Source of the DNA: Phycisphaerales bacterium | Lineage (GTDB): Bacteria; Planctomycetota; Phycisphaerae; UBA1845 | Reading direction: 5' to 3' | Assembly (NCBI GenBank): GCA_013140575.1 | Contig: JABFSN010000070.1 | Span: forward strand, 1 to 64,000 | DNA: 64,000 nucleotides | Shown: positions 36,458 to 41,969 of the stretch, piece after piece | Layout: every line of letters begins with the position of its first letter | How positions within the stretch are numbered: position 1 is the stretch's first letter | The notes under the pieces: generated by a model | Told to the model about the DNA's origin: nothing | What the model saw: only the letters and a program-made list of their open reading frames with translations | Databases searched by the model: none | Program-made: the position numbers and the translations under genes

Positions 36458-38269
36458 ATGTGGTTTACCACGATGTCTTCCTTCCGTCGGACCGTCACTG
36501 TACTGATGCTGTTGGCCGGGACTGTCCTCGCCCAACGCCGACCCGACGCTCCCAACGTGGAAGCCCCATCGAAACCCGACTTCCTGCCCATCTACGAAGC
36601 CCTCGGCGAGCCCCGCATGTTAATCCGCGCCGTCCCCATGGAAGGCGTCCTCGACGTGACGGCGGAGGCCTTCGAGAACCGGCTGACCACCCAGTTCCGC
36701 GACGACCGCGGCATTGTGCAGTTGATCCACCCCGATTCGGACCAGCAACGCAACGCCCGCGACACGGAAGTGCTGCTCGGCAACAATCTCGACGGCGCCG
36801 CCCGCATCCTGGCCAATCGCGAGCGCGCCGACGTCGTCGTTCTGCTGAAACTCGTCGGCCTGGGCGATCGCATTGAGGCGTCCTACGTCATCTACGACGC
36901 CCAGCGCGGCACGGAAATGGGCAGCCATAGCTGGTCCGTTCCGATTCTGACCGACGGCACCGTCGACCAGCCGACCATTCAAACGAATTGCGACGCACTT
37001 TTCATACGCATGACCGGCGAACTGGCCAAATTCAGCGGCGGCGAATGGCGACACACTATTTCGATCATCAACCTTCCGCCCATGCTTGACGGCGAACTTC
37101 GCGCCAATCTCGAGAAAATGCAGAACGTCAGCGGCAAGGTCCGTGTCGAACAGGACCGTGGCCACGGAACCTCGTTCACGTCGTTTTCGCTGCGCTACGC
37201 CAACGGAGACGAACTCGACCTTCGCGACCGCGCCCTGGACGTCCTCTCGCGCATGCTGAACGACCCCATCCAGATTCTGACCACCCGCGCCGGGGCCATC
37301 GTGTTCAACGTCCTTCCTCCCCGACCTGCGCCGGCCCAGGACTGGCTCACCCGCACGCCCACCCCGGGCGACGATTCGTCCGGCGCGCGAAACGAGCGTA
37401 CCCGATTCCAGGACGCCTACCGCAAGGCTGGGCAGCCCAAGACCGCGATTGTCATCAACGAAAACGCCCCGACCAGCGTTACGGGCGCGGCCCAGGAGGG
37501 TCAGTCGGGCGCCACCCAGCAAGGCCATACGGGCGGCGACGGGCAGCGCACCCGCTTCGAGCTGCTTCAATCGCACGAAATCGAAGGCCAAATGATCAAG
37601 TGGTTGAACGACCTTGGCGTACGCAATACCGACATCCGCAGTGCCGTGCAACAGGCCGCCAAGGATGGCAACCTCCAACTCAAAGTCTTTGAAGACTATG
37701 AACTGGCGCTCCTGACGGTGGACAAAGACCTCATCGATTTGATAATCGTCGGACTCGGCGAACAGATCGAAGCCGGCGAGGAATACCAGGTGCGTTACAC
37801 GTTTCGAGCCTACACCGTCAAAGACAGCAGGATTCTGGCCACCTCCAACGCCAATGCGTCCATTCCCATCGCCCAGAAGACTTCCAACGAAATCCTCAGC
37901 CAGGCCGTTCAAAACATCGCACGAACGGCCATCGGTGATCTGACCGTCCAATTGGGCAACCGCTGGGAGCCGCCCAGCACAATCCTGGTCGAGGTTTCGA
38001 AAGTGGGCTCCCATCGCCAGTTGCAGGGTATTCAGGACTGGCTGCGGAGCAACATGAGTACGGAGATTGTCTACATCCTCTCTCGCGAATTCGCACAGCT
38101 CCCCGAATCACAGAGCGGCAAGGGGGATTTTGAAATTGTCTATAACACGGAATTCGACGAGTTCATGCGAGCCCTGCACGCCGCCTCCGCCAAACCCGAC
38201 GCCCCCTTCGCCCTCAATGGCCAGTTGGTCAGCCGGCAACTCGTCCGGCTCGAAGCCACGCCGAAATGA
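36458..38269 (+). CDS. Exported protein with internal duplication, function unknown
   Basis: A 603-residue protein with a signal peptide (MWFTTMSSFRRTVTVLMLLA ending VLAQ). Two halves look alike. The N-half has VVVLLKLVGLGDRIEASYVI then YDAQRGTEM, followed by a beta-alpha module starting ISIINLPPMLDGELRANLEK. The C-half has LIIVGLGEQIEAGEEYQVRY then AYTVKDSRILATS, followed by TILVEVSKVGSHRQLQGIQD. The first module of each half recalls LpoB/CsgG-like folds. A Ser/Thr/Gly/Gln linker (EGQSGATQQGHTGG) joins them. Converges on the TIR operon with an 11-base gap. Not assigned a function. Confidence 0.8.
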   Translation: MWFTTMSSFRRTVTVLMLLAGTVLAQRRPDAPNVEAPSKPDFLPIYEALGEPRMLIRAVPMEGVLDVTAEAFENRLTTQFRDDRGIVQLIHPDSDQQRNARDTEVLLGNNLDGAARILANRERADVVVLLKLVGLGDRIEASYVIYDAQRGTEMGSHSWSVPILTDGTVDQPTIQTNCDALFIRMTGELAKFSGGEWRHTISIINLPPMLDGELRANLEKMQNVSGKVRVEQDRGHGTSFTSFSLRYANGDELDLRDRALDVLSRMLNDPIQILTTRAGAIVFNVLPPRPAPAQDWLTRTPTPGDDSSGARNERTRFQDAYRKAGQPKTAIVINENAPTSVTGAAQEGQSGATQQGHTGGDGQRTRFELLQSHEIEGQMIKWLNDLGVRNTDIRSAVQQAAKDGNLQLKVFEDYELALLTVDKDLIDLIIVGLGEQIEAGEEYQVRYTFRAYTVKDSRILATSNANASIPIAQKTSNEILSQAVQNIARTAIGDLTVQLGNRWEPPSTILVEVSKVGSHRQLQGIQDWLRSNMSTEIVYILSREFAQLPESQSGKGDFEIVYNTEFDEFMRALHAASAKPDAPFALNGQLVSRQLVRLEATPK

Positions 38270-38280
38270 GACCGCGGCGG

Positions 38281-39465
38281 TTACGGCAGGGCGACGATGG
38301 TGACGTATTCATCAACGGCGAGCACGTACCGCCCCACGATTTCCGTGACTTTCGCTTTCATCGCCGCGTCCCCAGTGCATTCGATCGTGATTGTTCGCGG
38401 ATCGTTTCGCCTTTCGGTCAGACGAACGACGAGGCCGGGCACTCCTTGCCGGCGTAGTGCCTCTTGAATTCTCGATCGAACCGTTTCGGGGGCGACCTCG
38501 ACGTCGACACGGACACACTTCTCGTCGGTGTAGATGAACTGGACTCGTTCTTTTTCTTCCTCACGCAATACGTACCCGCCCACGCGGACGCGACCGTCGC
38601 CGACCTGATAAACCAGGTCCGCAAGCGGTCGATCGTCAAGCAGCCTGCCCCTCAATCCCTGCAGATCCGCAGCCGAACCGGTGCAATCCACCGTGTGCGA
38701 CGGCGGGAATGGGGGTCGTCGGCCGGGCTCGGCTTCGACCGTTGTCTCGGCACCTTCTTTCGCCGGCGGGGTATTGTCGTTTTCAGTTCCTGCTGGGATC
38801 GACGAACCGGTGGGCTCCCCGTTTTTCGGAACCGGCATTGTCTCCGGTTTCGTCGGCGAAATGGAGTCACCGGGCAAATCCCCGTCCCTGCGCCACCGGC
38901 TCTTCAACTCAATGCCGACCCACGACACCAACACGACGAGGACCACGGCCCGGACCAAAACTTCCGCACTCCACCTCGTTCGGCGCTGAACCGCTCGAGG
39001 CACGGTCGCCTGGTGTCCCGGCGCCGCGGACTGCGGACTTCCCCGGACCGCCGCCACCAGCGCCGGCACTCGCTCGTCAAACGTCTCGCGCGAAATCAAG
39101 AACGACACCGTCCCGCCCAGGCAGTGCCGCCACCCCGGCGCTCTCTCCTGAAACTCCTCGTGTGCCAGGCCGATCAGTATCGGGATGATGCGTTTCCGCC
39201 GTTCAAACGCCTGAACCAGCTCGTTTTCAACCTGTTGCGACGGCAGCGAATGCTCCGAAACGAGAATCAACACCGTCGGCGCACGGGCCAGCGCGTCGGC
39301 CACTTTCTCCGGGTATTTATCACCCGGCAAAACGTCGGTGTGATACCGCCACGGCCGAAACCCGACCGCGGCAAGCGCCTCGCCGATCCGCTCCGCCGCG
39401 TCGCCGTCCTCTTCGGCATAGCTGATGAATACCAGCGGTCTGTTTTCGGCGGCGGCATCGCTCAT
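38281..39465 (-). CDS. Membrane-anchored TIR-domain protein
   Basis: About 394 residues from MSDAAAENRPLVFISYAEED. TIR domain about residues 9-140: VFISYAEEDGDAAERIGEAL, LVSEHSLPSQQVENELVQAF with the candidate catalytic Glu at 82, and IIPILIGL. A single membrane helix at about 169-187 follows, then a Pro/Glu-rich linker and a C-terminal domain (about 265-394) with two beta-alpha-beta units resembling BON-type modules (EALRRQGVPGLVVRLTER). The TIR part would lie in the cytoplasm and the tail outside. Last gene of a four-gene, low-G+C unit. NAD cleavage is an inference from the Glu. Confidence 0.85.
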   Translation of the reverse strand: MSDAAAENRPLVFISYAEEDGDAAERIGEALAAVGFRPWRYHTDVLPGDKYPEKVADALARAPTVLILVSEHSLPSQQVENELVQAFERRKRIIPILIGLAHEEFQERAPGWRHCLGGTVSFLISRETFDERVPALVAAVRGSPQSAAPGHQATVPRAVQRRTRWSAEVLVRAVVLVVLVSWVGIELKSRWRRDGDLPGDSISPTKPETMPVPKNGEPTGSSIPAGTENDNTPPAKEGAETTVEAEPGRRPPFPPSHTVDCTGSAADLQGLRGRLLDDRPLADLVYQVGDGRVRVGGYVLREEEKERVQFIYTDEKCVRVDVEVAPETVRSRIQEALRRQGVPGLVVRLTERRNDPRTITIECTGDAAMKAKVTEIVGRYVLAVDEYVTIVALP

Positions 39466-39504
39466 GCGCAGCCCTTTGCCATCTCTCACGCCGCCGCGGT
39501 AGCA

Positions 39505-40017
39505 CTACTCTCGATAATAGTGGTGCCGGACTTCCGCCGTCCATTTTTGAAACACGGCTCTAAACGCCTTCTTCTCGTTGTACTCAGGGTCTGCAGGGGG
39601 CATTGGGAGTACGAATACATCCGTGACACCTTCGTCGAACACGCCGCCCGAGATGTTTTGCTCGCGAAAAATTAGCAGAGGTACGCCAAGGGCAAAAAGA
39701 ACTCCGGCCTCCAATTGATTCCACGGTGTCGCAAAAGCAACGGTCGCGCCCTTCTTGACCCTTTTCTGGTAGGCAGTTCCTCTTTTCAGGATACCGGCCG
39801 TCGCTTCGAATTGAGAGAAGCCGAGTATGACGCCGCCGGAACAATGCCGCGCGAGCGTCTGAACTTCGCGAAGCGGAAGAATTGTTGGGAAATCAGTCTT
39901 TCCGATCGCGCGAGCTTCAAGCCCGTGGTGACCCAACTCGCCGAGAATTGCGCGCCGAACAGTTTCTTGTTGCTCGCTGAGAAATGTCGGTGCAGATACA
40001 AAAACAGGGATGAGCAT
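39505..40017 (-). CDS. Nucleoside deoxyribosyltransferase/TIR-like protein
   Basis: A 170-residue soluble protein, starting MLIPVFVSAPTFLSEQQETV. Conserved-looking stretches are FPTILPLREVQTLARHCSGG, TPWNQLEAGVLFALGVPLLI (candidate catalytic E103) and GGVFDEGVTDVFVLPMP. The P-loop-free alpha-beta pattern with Glu-Ala-Gly before a hydrophobic strand fits the NDT/TIR-like superfamily whose members bind or cleave nucleotides; this is inference from pattern only. It lies 32 bases after the SLATT gene and about 40 before the membrane TIR gene, so they are likely one transcript. Confidence 0.7.
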   Translation of the reverse strand: MLIPVFVSAPTFLSEQQETVRRAILGELGHHGLEARAIGKTDFPTILPLREVQTLARHCSGGVILGFSQFEATAGILKRGTAYQKRVKKGATVAFATPWNQLEAGVLFALGVPLLIFREQNISGGVFDEGVTDVFVLPMPPADPEYNEKKAFRAVFQKWTAEVRHHYYRE

Positions 40018-40048
40018 GTCGGCACCAAACTCCCGTACGCAGCACTGA

Positions 40049-40510
40049 TCAGTCTTGTTTCGGAGCCGCGTTCGCTTGGTCCTCGGACTTTACATGGCGG
40101 GCGTAGAAGTTCGAACTCTCTCTGGCGAGAATGGCTTCCACGCGCTCCACAAAGAGCGCATCTCGACCCTCGGCAATCCGGTACTCGTGAATTCCGGCCG
40201 AATGGAGCTCCCTTTCACGCGCCAGCGCATCCCACGTTAACCGGTATGACAGCCAGTTTTCGTGGCTTTTGTAGTGCGCAAGGAGCCCGGTCGCGACGAC
40301 CAGGCTTGCGGACAAAACGGCTGACCCGGCCCTCCAACCGAACTCCGGTGGAACGAGAGAAACGAAAGCGGTCAGGAAGGCGGATGCGATAATCACGTAG
40401 ACAGAGAGTCCGCGATACCATCGCTTGTGCATTGTCGCACGGCTGTCGTAGAACGCAAGCGAGCCAGCATATCGTGCGTCAAGATATCGCTGAATGGTGT
40501 CGTTATCCAT
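40049..40510 (-). CDS. DUF4231 (SLATT) two-helix membrane protein
   Basis: A 153-residue protein of the DUF4231/SLATT type. The N-terminal RYLDARYAGSLAFYDSRA and W-R-G leads to two membrane helices (about 34-53 and 59-80). Next come HYKSHENWLSYRLTWDALAR and RDALFVERVEAILARESSNF, the family's diagnostic C-terminal helices. SLATT proteins occur beside nucleotide-signal sensors and are predicted to form pores that kill the cell once triggered. It overlaps the upstream TIR-like gene by eight bases, so the two are coupled. Confidence 0.87.
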   Translation of the reverse strand: MDNDTIQRYLDARYAGSLAFYDSRATMHKRWYRGLSVYVIIASAFLTAFVSLVPPEFGWRAGSAVLSASLVVATGLLAHYKSHENWLSYRLTWDALARERELHSAGIHEYRIAEGRDALFVERVEAILARESSNFYARHVKSEDQANAAPKQD

Positions 40511-40937
40511 GAGCGCGGTCCCTCTTAACGCCCCGGGGTTTGGCGACGACTAACGAGCGCATCGTGCGAACAATTTCATTGATATTCCAAGGGACGAGCG
40601 GATGCCCCGCAAGGGGCTCCGGGTATTTCGGAACTTCGGCTGGGTTGTACAAGTAAACGCCCATGATCGGCTTTCCGAGGTCCATTGTCTTGCGTAGTTC
40701 CCAATCGACCCACTTGCTCGTGTAGGTCGTTGGACCACACAGGCAGATGGTGAGAGCAACGAGCTTGATCTGATCGGCCAGGCCTCGTGCAACGTATCCA
40801 GAGCTCAGGCTGTCAAACGGAATCTTGATTGAGAAATCCGCAAATTCGATGTCGGAAGCCTGGTTCTTGGCCTGTCCACGGAAAAGATTGACGAGATTCA
40901 AATCCTCTTCCACGAAGCTCAAAAACGCCCGTATCAC
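40503..40937 (-). CDS. DUF1863 TIR-like protein (ThsB-like fold)
   Basis: A 144-residue protein starting at GTG, preceded by AAGGGGTG. The sequence MIRAFLSFVEEDLNLVNLFR, the phrase SSGYVARGLADQIKLVALTI and YTSKWVDWELRKTMDLGKPI match the MTH538/DUF1863 TIR-like domain found in Thoeris ThsB. The candidate catalytic glutamate is E80 in VDWEL. It is the first gene of the four-gene unit. Lower G+C than its neighbours (a hand-counted 60-base line at 40801 has 29 G/C) suggests transfer. It may sense infection and make or cleave an NAD-derived signal; that role is inferred. Confidence 0.87.
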   Translation of the reverse strand: MIRAFLSFVEEDLNLVNLFRGQAKNQASDIEFADFSIKIPFDSLSSGYVARGLADQIKLVALTICLCGPTTYTSKWVDWELRKTMDLGKPIMGVYLYNPAEVPKYPEPLAGHPLVPWNINEIVRTMRSLVVAKPRGVKRDRAHG

Positions 40938-41111: not shown

Positions 41112-41969
41112 TCACAACGCGGCTTCGCCGTCCACGTCGGCGGGGACGGCAAGGGTTTCCTGTTCCGGAACCGGTGTATACACGCGCGCCTGTTTTTCCG
41201 GCGGAACCAATTCTTCGACCTTCGGCAAGTCATCCAGCGACGCCAACCCGAACACTTCCAGAAACCGCTTCGTCGTGCCGTACAACAGCGGCCGGCCGAT
41301 CTCCTCCGCCCGGCCCACGATTTTGACCAGGTTCATCTCGCGGAGCTTCTGCAGAATGACCCCGGCCCCGACGCCGCGGATTTCCTCGATCTCCACCCGC
41401 ATCGCCGGCTGCCGATAGGCCACCACGGCCAGCGTCTCGAGCGACGCCTGGCTCAATTTCGTCTCCCGCCGCACCTTCAAAAGCTGGCCTACCCACACGT
41501 TGTACTGCGGAAGGGTCATCATCTGGTAACCCTTGGCGATCTCCTCGATGCGAAACGACGCCCCGGTTTGCCCGTAGCGCACGTTCAACGCCGCGACGTG
41601 CTTGCGAACCTCGCCCACGCCCCCCGCCCCCAAAATCTGCGCGATCCGCAACGGCGTGATCGGCGAGTCCGACGCAAACAGCATGGCCTCCACGATCGAC
41701 TCGGTGGTCAGTTCCGACGCGTCGGCCGTCAATTCCGGCGGATCGGGCGCTTCGTCGTATCCGCCCTCGACGGCCGCGTCGGCCCCGATGCCGCTCGAAC
41801 CGTCGACATCGGTTGCTACGCCCACCCCGTCCTCGTCGGCGACGGAATCGGTCTCGTCATCCGTCCGCGGACCGAGATGCCCGCGCTCGTCGACAATGTC
41901 GACCGCCTGCACGCTGCCCGCCGTGTCTTCCGCGTCCAACTGCGTTGGGATGTTGTGCCGTTTCCTCAT
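41112..41969 (-). CDS. scpB: Segregation and condensation protein B
   Basis: Kleisin-associated winged-helix subunit of the SMC-ScpAB condensin that compacts the chromosome. The conserved core (about residues 85-250) has ESIVEAMLFASDSPITPLRI, KGYQMMTLPQYNVWV, LSQASLETLAVVAYRQP and YGTTKRFLEVFGLASLDDLP. A roughly 80-residue acidic N-terminal extension is variable in this phylum. No scpA is adjacent, but smc lies 2.4 kb downstream on the same strand. Confidence 0.95.
   Translation of the reverse strand: MRKRHNIPTQLDAEDTAGSVQAVDIVDERGHLGPRTDDETDSVADEDGVGVATDVDGSSGIGADAAVEGGYDEAPDPPELTADASELTTESIVEAMLFASDSPITPLRIAQILGAGGVGEVRKHVAALNVRYGQTGASFRIEEIAKGYQMMTLPQYNVWVGQLLKVRRETKLSQASLETLAVVAYRQPAMRVEIEEIRGVGAGVILQKLREMNLVKIVGRAEEIGRPLLYGTTKRFLEVFGLASLDDLPKVEELVPPEKQARVYTPVPEQETLAVPADVDGEAAL

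Follow-up and report, generated by a model that had tools for sequence, protein, structure and literature searches.

A ThsB–SLATT gene cassette with a third protein of an unnamed family, probably an antiviral alarm related to Thoeris, in a Phycisphaerales bacterium

We analysed a stretch of 64,000 nucleotides from contig JABFSN010000070.1 of a Phycisphaerales bacterium (hereafter, the window). A preliminary description had placed four genes on its minus strand, and the map of open reading frames confirmed all of them at those coordinates and on that strand (Table 1). The genes are called P1 to P4 in the order of transcription. As had been reported, the first two overlap by exactly 8 bases. The remaining gaps, given earlier as 15–40 bases, are 31 bases between P2 and P3 and 39 bases between P3 and the ATG of P4 at 39465, or 15 bases if the GTG at 39489 is the start of P4. 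The end of P4 is separated by 11 bases from a convergent gene at 36458-38269. This gene encodes a secreted-type protein of 603 aa that has no Pfam match; among 29 related genomes, only 3 contain relatives of it, and the sole good relative sits elsewhere. The gap between scpB and P1 is the likely place of the cassette promoter. A search for promoters and terminators at the locus returned nothing above chance.

Table 1. Features of the locus in the window
Feature	Coordinates	Strand	Description
P1	40503..40937	-	ThsB-type TIR protein, 144 aa, GTG start
P2	40049..40510	-	SLATT/DUF4231 protein, 153 aa, proposed membrane effector
P3	39505..40017	-	170 aa, unnamed family, TIR/NDT/nucleotide N-glycosidase fold
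P4	38281..39465	-	TIR_2 domain and one transmembrane segment; last of the gene run, membership doubtful
Gap scpB–P1	40938..41111	.	174 bases; upstream boundary of the cassette in the ORF map
scpB	41112-41969	-	Gene upstream of P1

The fall in G+C content that had been noted for the whole run is real for P1–P3 (53.6–57.4%, with 56–65% at third positions) when compared to neighbouring genes (61–67% and 67–86%, respectively). It does not extend to P4, in which values of 63% and 72% are native-like. Using scpB as a synteny anchor, we examined 11 relatives and found no cassette beside this gene in any of them; P3 is missing from 38 of the 39 other genomes of the order. Because of the low G+C of P1–P3 and this absence from relatives, the cassette looks acquired by horizontal transfer. 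A plasmid search at the DNA level gave nothing. In the ORF map of the window, no phage or defence-island genes adjoin the cassette, which has housekeeping genes beside it instead. We counted this location, without a visible defence island, against a Thoeris-like defence function.

The first gene had been called TIR-like of the ThsB kind, and P1 does match the Pfam family ThsB_TIR (PF08937; 63.2 bits at a cut-off of 21.2, E 3e-17) as well as the PADLOC ThsB model (43.5 bits); NCBIfam models gave no match. A phmmer search matched P1 to the solved TIR structure 8fz9 and, weakly, to BcThsB (6lhy). The residue E80, within KWVDWE, stands at the kept position of the catalytic glutamate and is invariant across 14 P3-linked ThsB proteins. 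P1 is a ThsB-type TIR protein, as found in Thoeris of types I and II. The genome of the window carries three further ThsB_TIR matches, on contigs C29, C112 and C253 (L157-L159). The description of the second gene as DUF4231/SLATT is equally sound: P2 scores 87.2 bits with the NCBIfam model NF033634 (cut-off 41, E 8.5e-25) and 39.3 bits with DUF4231 in Pfam (E 9e-10). Hydropathy reveals two hydrophobic segments, at 32-58 and 60-80, so P2 combines the SLATT profile with the two transmembrane helices of the SLATT effector family. A signal-binding domain was not recognisable in P2 with Pfam, and we counted this too against a Thoeris-like function.

P4 is a membrane-anchored TIR protein, as had been proposed, with a TIR_2 match of 68.6 bits (Pfam, E 9e-19), one transmembrane segment at about 163-191 and Glu82 at the catalytic position. 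Its C-terminal domain, of an unnamed kind, found one weak match among 199 genomes; otherwise, homologues in the phylum cover the TIR part only. The sole NCBIfam match of P4, to ThcB4, is far below the cut-off, and the structure model made from the single sequence is poor (pLDDT 48).

P3 matched nothing in Pfam, NCBIfam, PADLOC or PHROGs. Its profile matched no chain among the PDB sequences, and 49 members of its family gave no Pfam family except for single chance matches. From 49 homologues, we built an AlphaFold model of P3, which reached a pLDDT of 91.6 and a pTM of 0.86. The best Foldseek match of this model is the CMP N-glycosidase BcmB (E 1.7e-4), followed by the TIR domains of IL-1RAcP and SARM1, nucleoside deoxyribosyltransferases (NDT) and DNPH1, amid generic flavodoxin folds. 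Since the TM-scores are about 0.5, this is kinship at the level of the fold and not family membership. Named viral matches of P3 are largely deoxyribosyltransferases. Residues F6, S8, P48, C59, W99, N100, E103, P113 and G130 are invariant across the 49 P3 proteins. In the model, Glu103 is located in the helix 98-109, after the third strand (61-66), which corresponds in topology to the position of the catalytic glutamate in TIR and NDT enzymes. We infer that Glu103 is catalytic. P3 shows the marks of the TIR/NDT/N-glycosidase superfamily, namely a Rossmann-like fold with a glutamate on the helix that follows strand three. In sequence profiles, it matches no named member family significantly. 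The earlier label "NDT/TIR-like" therefore stands for the fold of the P3 model; it does not stand for profiles, where neither Pfam NDT nor any other family was matched. The candidates DUF4062, SLOG and Pfam NDT were rejected, with no profile match across the 49 members. We also rejected, on sequence, the idea that P3 is a divergent ThsB: hhalign of P3 against ThsB profiles gave a probability of 4%, and this non-significant alignment was likewise counted against a Thoeris-like reading.

A motif scan for P3 in 84,980 species genomes yielded 94 relatives, and we retained 80 of these loci. With 12 more from viral contigs, the survey covered 92 loci. The P3 family is spread over many phyla. It turned out that the gene order ThsB-SLATT-P3 recurs in Planctomycetota (L021), Gammaproteobacteria (L022), another member of Phycisphaerales (L023) and Omnitrophota (L028). 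The L021 locus, from another planctomycete family, has the same order and strand, and its proteins are 70, 52 and 68% identical to P1, P2 and P3 of the window; L023 has two further ThsB-like genes. A second planctomycete locus (L027) can be added if one accepts the TIR-like gene upstream, which is Pfam-negative but has a homologue in L029 that reaches 31 bits. In L029 itself (Ignavibacteria), the order is rearranged to ThsB-P3-SLATT-TIR, and in L031 (Acidobacteria) a borderline DUF4062 protein is followed by P3 and SLATT. In the P3 phylogeny, L021, L022 and L023 form a group with the window (SH-aLRT 99); all of them are SLATT-linked, and they come from two phyla. Thus, the expectation that the neighbourhood would recur in three or more lineages was borne out for ThsB-SLATT-P3 (planctomycetes, a gammaproteobacterium, an omnitrophote and an ignavibacterium). 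The unit of four genes that had been proposed was not: the conserved unit has three genes, and P4 is missing from the other such loci. We excluded P4 from this unit on account of that absence, its host-like G+C and its nearly unmatched C-terminus. Probably, P4 joined its neighbours later or serves as an optional additional TIR sensor.

ThsB genes are enriched near P3. In 16 of the 92 loci, one lies on the same strand at a distance of up to 4 kb, at an expectation of about 0.07, which is derived from the ThsB density in 149 planctomycete genomes taken, by our own estimate, as ~5.3 Mb each; the counting profile was seeded from P3 neighbours, and key members were confirmed with Pfam. The effector beside ThsB and P3 is exchanged among loci. 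A C14 caspase takes this place in planctomycetes, Nitrospiria, Spirochaetales, Fibrobacter and Anaerobium (L030, L043, L046, L048, L052, L053, L054 and L061), and on a viral contig and among haloarchaea it goes to an 8xMP membrane protein (L101, L059, L177). A locus with P3 and caspase is also present in the window's own taxonomic family. In 71 of the 92 loci, no such partner is found within 4 kb; therefore, P3 can work alone. Lone P3 genes are often membrane-anchored or fused (L018, L019 and L020). The order ThsB-SLATT-ThsB, without P3, is found in a viral contig (L181) and on an Agrobacterium plasmid (L176), so the ThsB/SLATT pair can do without P3. Judged by gene order, the second TIR in the third place there suggests that P3 fills a TIR-like role.

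Several other arrangements were observed during this survey. In Nitrospira (L033:3325-7752), SLATT, a TPR-S protein, P3 and a caspase stand in a row, that is, two effectors around one P3. The Agrobacterium plasmid pTiCFBP4996 (L176:714-5292) encodes TIR-TGT, an Ogg-HhH glycosylase, QueC, a ThsB-type TIR, a double SLATT (SLATT_3 and SLATT_1) and a second ThsB, a deazaguanine-linked TIR-SLATT locus. In a Rhizobium copy of this type of locus (L175:707-3869), SLATT is replaced downstream of ThsB by a gene with a weak match to Mrr nuclease. In Cyanobium and relatives (L081, L082, L084, L089, L094, L095, L099), P3 homologues have 239-284 aa, with a gene of ~970 aa nearby on the other strand and without ThsB, SLATT or caspase. 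No P3 was found in phage records. Viral contigs L106-L112 contain distant P3 homologues (22-28% identity), opposite which genes of ~330, 434, 474 and 370 aa recur in several; these contigs may represent a defence hotspot in one prophage group.

In Thoeris, ThsB proteins make NAD-derived signals (PMC11204291, PMC13232231), and SLATT proteins beside TIR are predicted to be membrane effectors regulated by ADPr derivatives (PMC9503650, PMC7159879). We put a probability of roughly 60% on P1–P3 being a Thoeris-like abortive-infection (suicide) module, in which the ThsB protein signals, P3 works on that signal and the membrane is breached by SLATT. Infection would activate P1, which would use NAD+ to make an ADP-ribose-type signal. 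In response, the two-helix SLATT protein P2 would open or breach the inner membrane, and the infected cell would stop before phage release. P3, as a second nucleotide-glycosidase-type enzyme, would most likely work on the signal by finishing, converting or clearing it. We favour a place for P3 on the signal side because it accompanies effectors as unlike as SLATT, caspase and 8xMP and has a full set of active-site-type residues. A bolder and much more tentative version is that the P3 family is a new immunity enzyme making or converting a novel NAD-derived signal common to the three effectors, one core with three executioners.

P3 could, with some lesser likelihood, be a receiver rather than an enzyme, with a glycosidase-type pocket that binds the ThsB signal, and gate SLATT in place of a macro or SLOG domain. 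This agrees with the lack of a ligand-binding domain in P2, with the role of SLOG domains as signal receivers in type I Thoeris and with the direct adjacency of P3 and SLATT here and in the majority of ThsB-SLATT-P3 loci. However, none of the 49 members departs from Glu103, Trp99 and Asn100, as one expects for a catalyst, and P3 also occurs with caspases and alone. Slightly less likely, P3 is itself a toxic effector of the NADase or nucleotide-depleting type, and the module has two executioners. DUF4062 TIR-like proteins act in this way (PMC13174449), and P3 stands by itself in many genomes, frequently with a membrane anchor at its C-terminus (L050, L065, L067); a planctomycete fusion (L019:4645-5544) joins a P3-like domain to a TIR domain of the CAP12/Pycsar type. 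Two executioners in a unit of three genes are, however, less usual. We consider it unlikely that the operon has four genes and cannot do without P4 as a sensor or effector in the membrane. P4 does lie on the same strand shortly downstream with its glutamate in place, and a non-orthologous TIR_2 protein is found near other loci (L027, a TIR-nSTAND; L029; L052), but no P4 stands beside any other ThsB-SLATT-P3 cassette, and its composition and C-terminus speak against it as described above. A housekeeping or stress cluster for NAD or nucleotide salvage would agree with the resemblance of the P3 fold to salvage enzymes and with the surroundings of the locus, but it is highly improbable given that ThsB and SLATT are conflict-system families, that the cassette is patchily distributed, low in G+C and missing from most relatives, and that P3 has archaeal and virus-borne relatives.

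The view that no described system has this set of genes must be narrowed. Earlier papers had already described TIR next to SLATT (PMC9503650, PMC7159879), and other effectors are known from further Thoeris types. What is new is the P3 family, which looks undescribed. In the searchable literature, to which the 2025 survey of TIR systems does not belong, we found no account of this family or of the swapping of its effectors. SLATT proteins have for years been predicted to be signal-gated membrane effectors, and a cassette of ~1.4 kb with homologues in several phyla makes this prediction directly testable. The P3 family combines an invariant glutamate with a glycosidase-type fold and is nameless in Pfam, NCBIfam and PDB. 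It connects effectors of the SLATT, caspase and 8xMP kinds and could uncover one more step of TIR signalling. Found together across distant bacteria, the three genes probably constitute an antiviral alarm related to Thoeris.

Among known systems, type II Thoeris combines a TIR NADase, a 2TM effector and a second TIR whose active site is NDT-like (PMC11204291). The cassette resembles this type (ThsB1, ThsB2 and TM-macro ThsA of E. coli CFT073) in having a putative TIR NADase, a second protein of the TIR/NDT type and a small two-helix protein as proposed membrane effector. It differs in that the effector is SLATT and the window has no macro domain, and in that neither the P3-linked ThsB proteins nor any PDB chain is detectably related to P3 in sequence. 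The effector of types I and II is lacking: Pfam found no ThsA, either SIR2-SLOG or TM-macro, in P1–P4 or in the flanking genes. Type IV Thoeris consists of TIR and caspase and uses N7-cADPR (PMC12847820). A ThsB-type TIR with a C14 caspase is likewise found in P3-family loci of several phyla, for example L046, whereas the effector in the window is SLATT and Pfam found no caspase-like protein there. Swarozyc and other DUF4062 TIR-like NADases (PMC13174449) share the TIR/NDT-superfamily fold with a catalytic glutamate, and a borderline DUF4062 protein precedes P3 and SLATT in the acidobacterial locus, but P3 matches no DUF4062 profile. TIR-SLATT neighbourhoods have been described in phages (PMC9503650). 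In these, as in L176 and L181, a ThsB-type TIR directly adjoins SLATT, as in the window, with the difference that the third place in L176 and L181 belongs to a second TIR and in the window to P3. The ThsB-SLATT-P3 cassette would work in the manner of Thoeris and may be one more Thoeris type.
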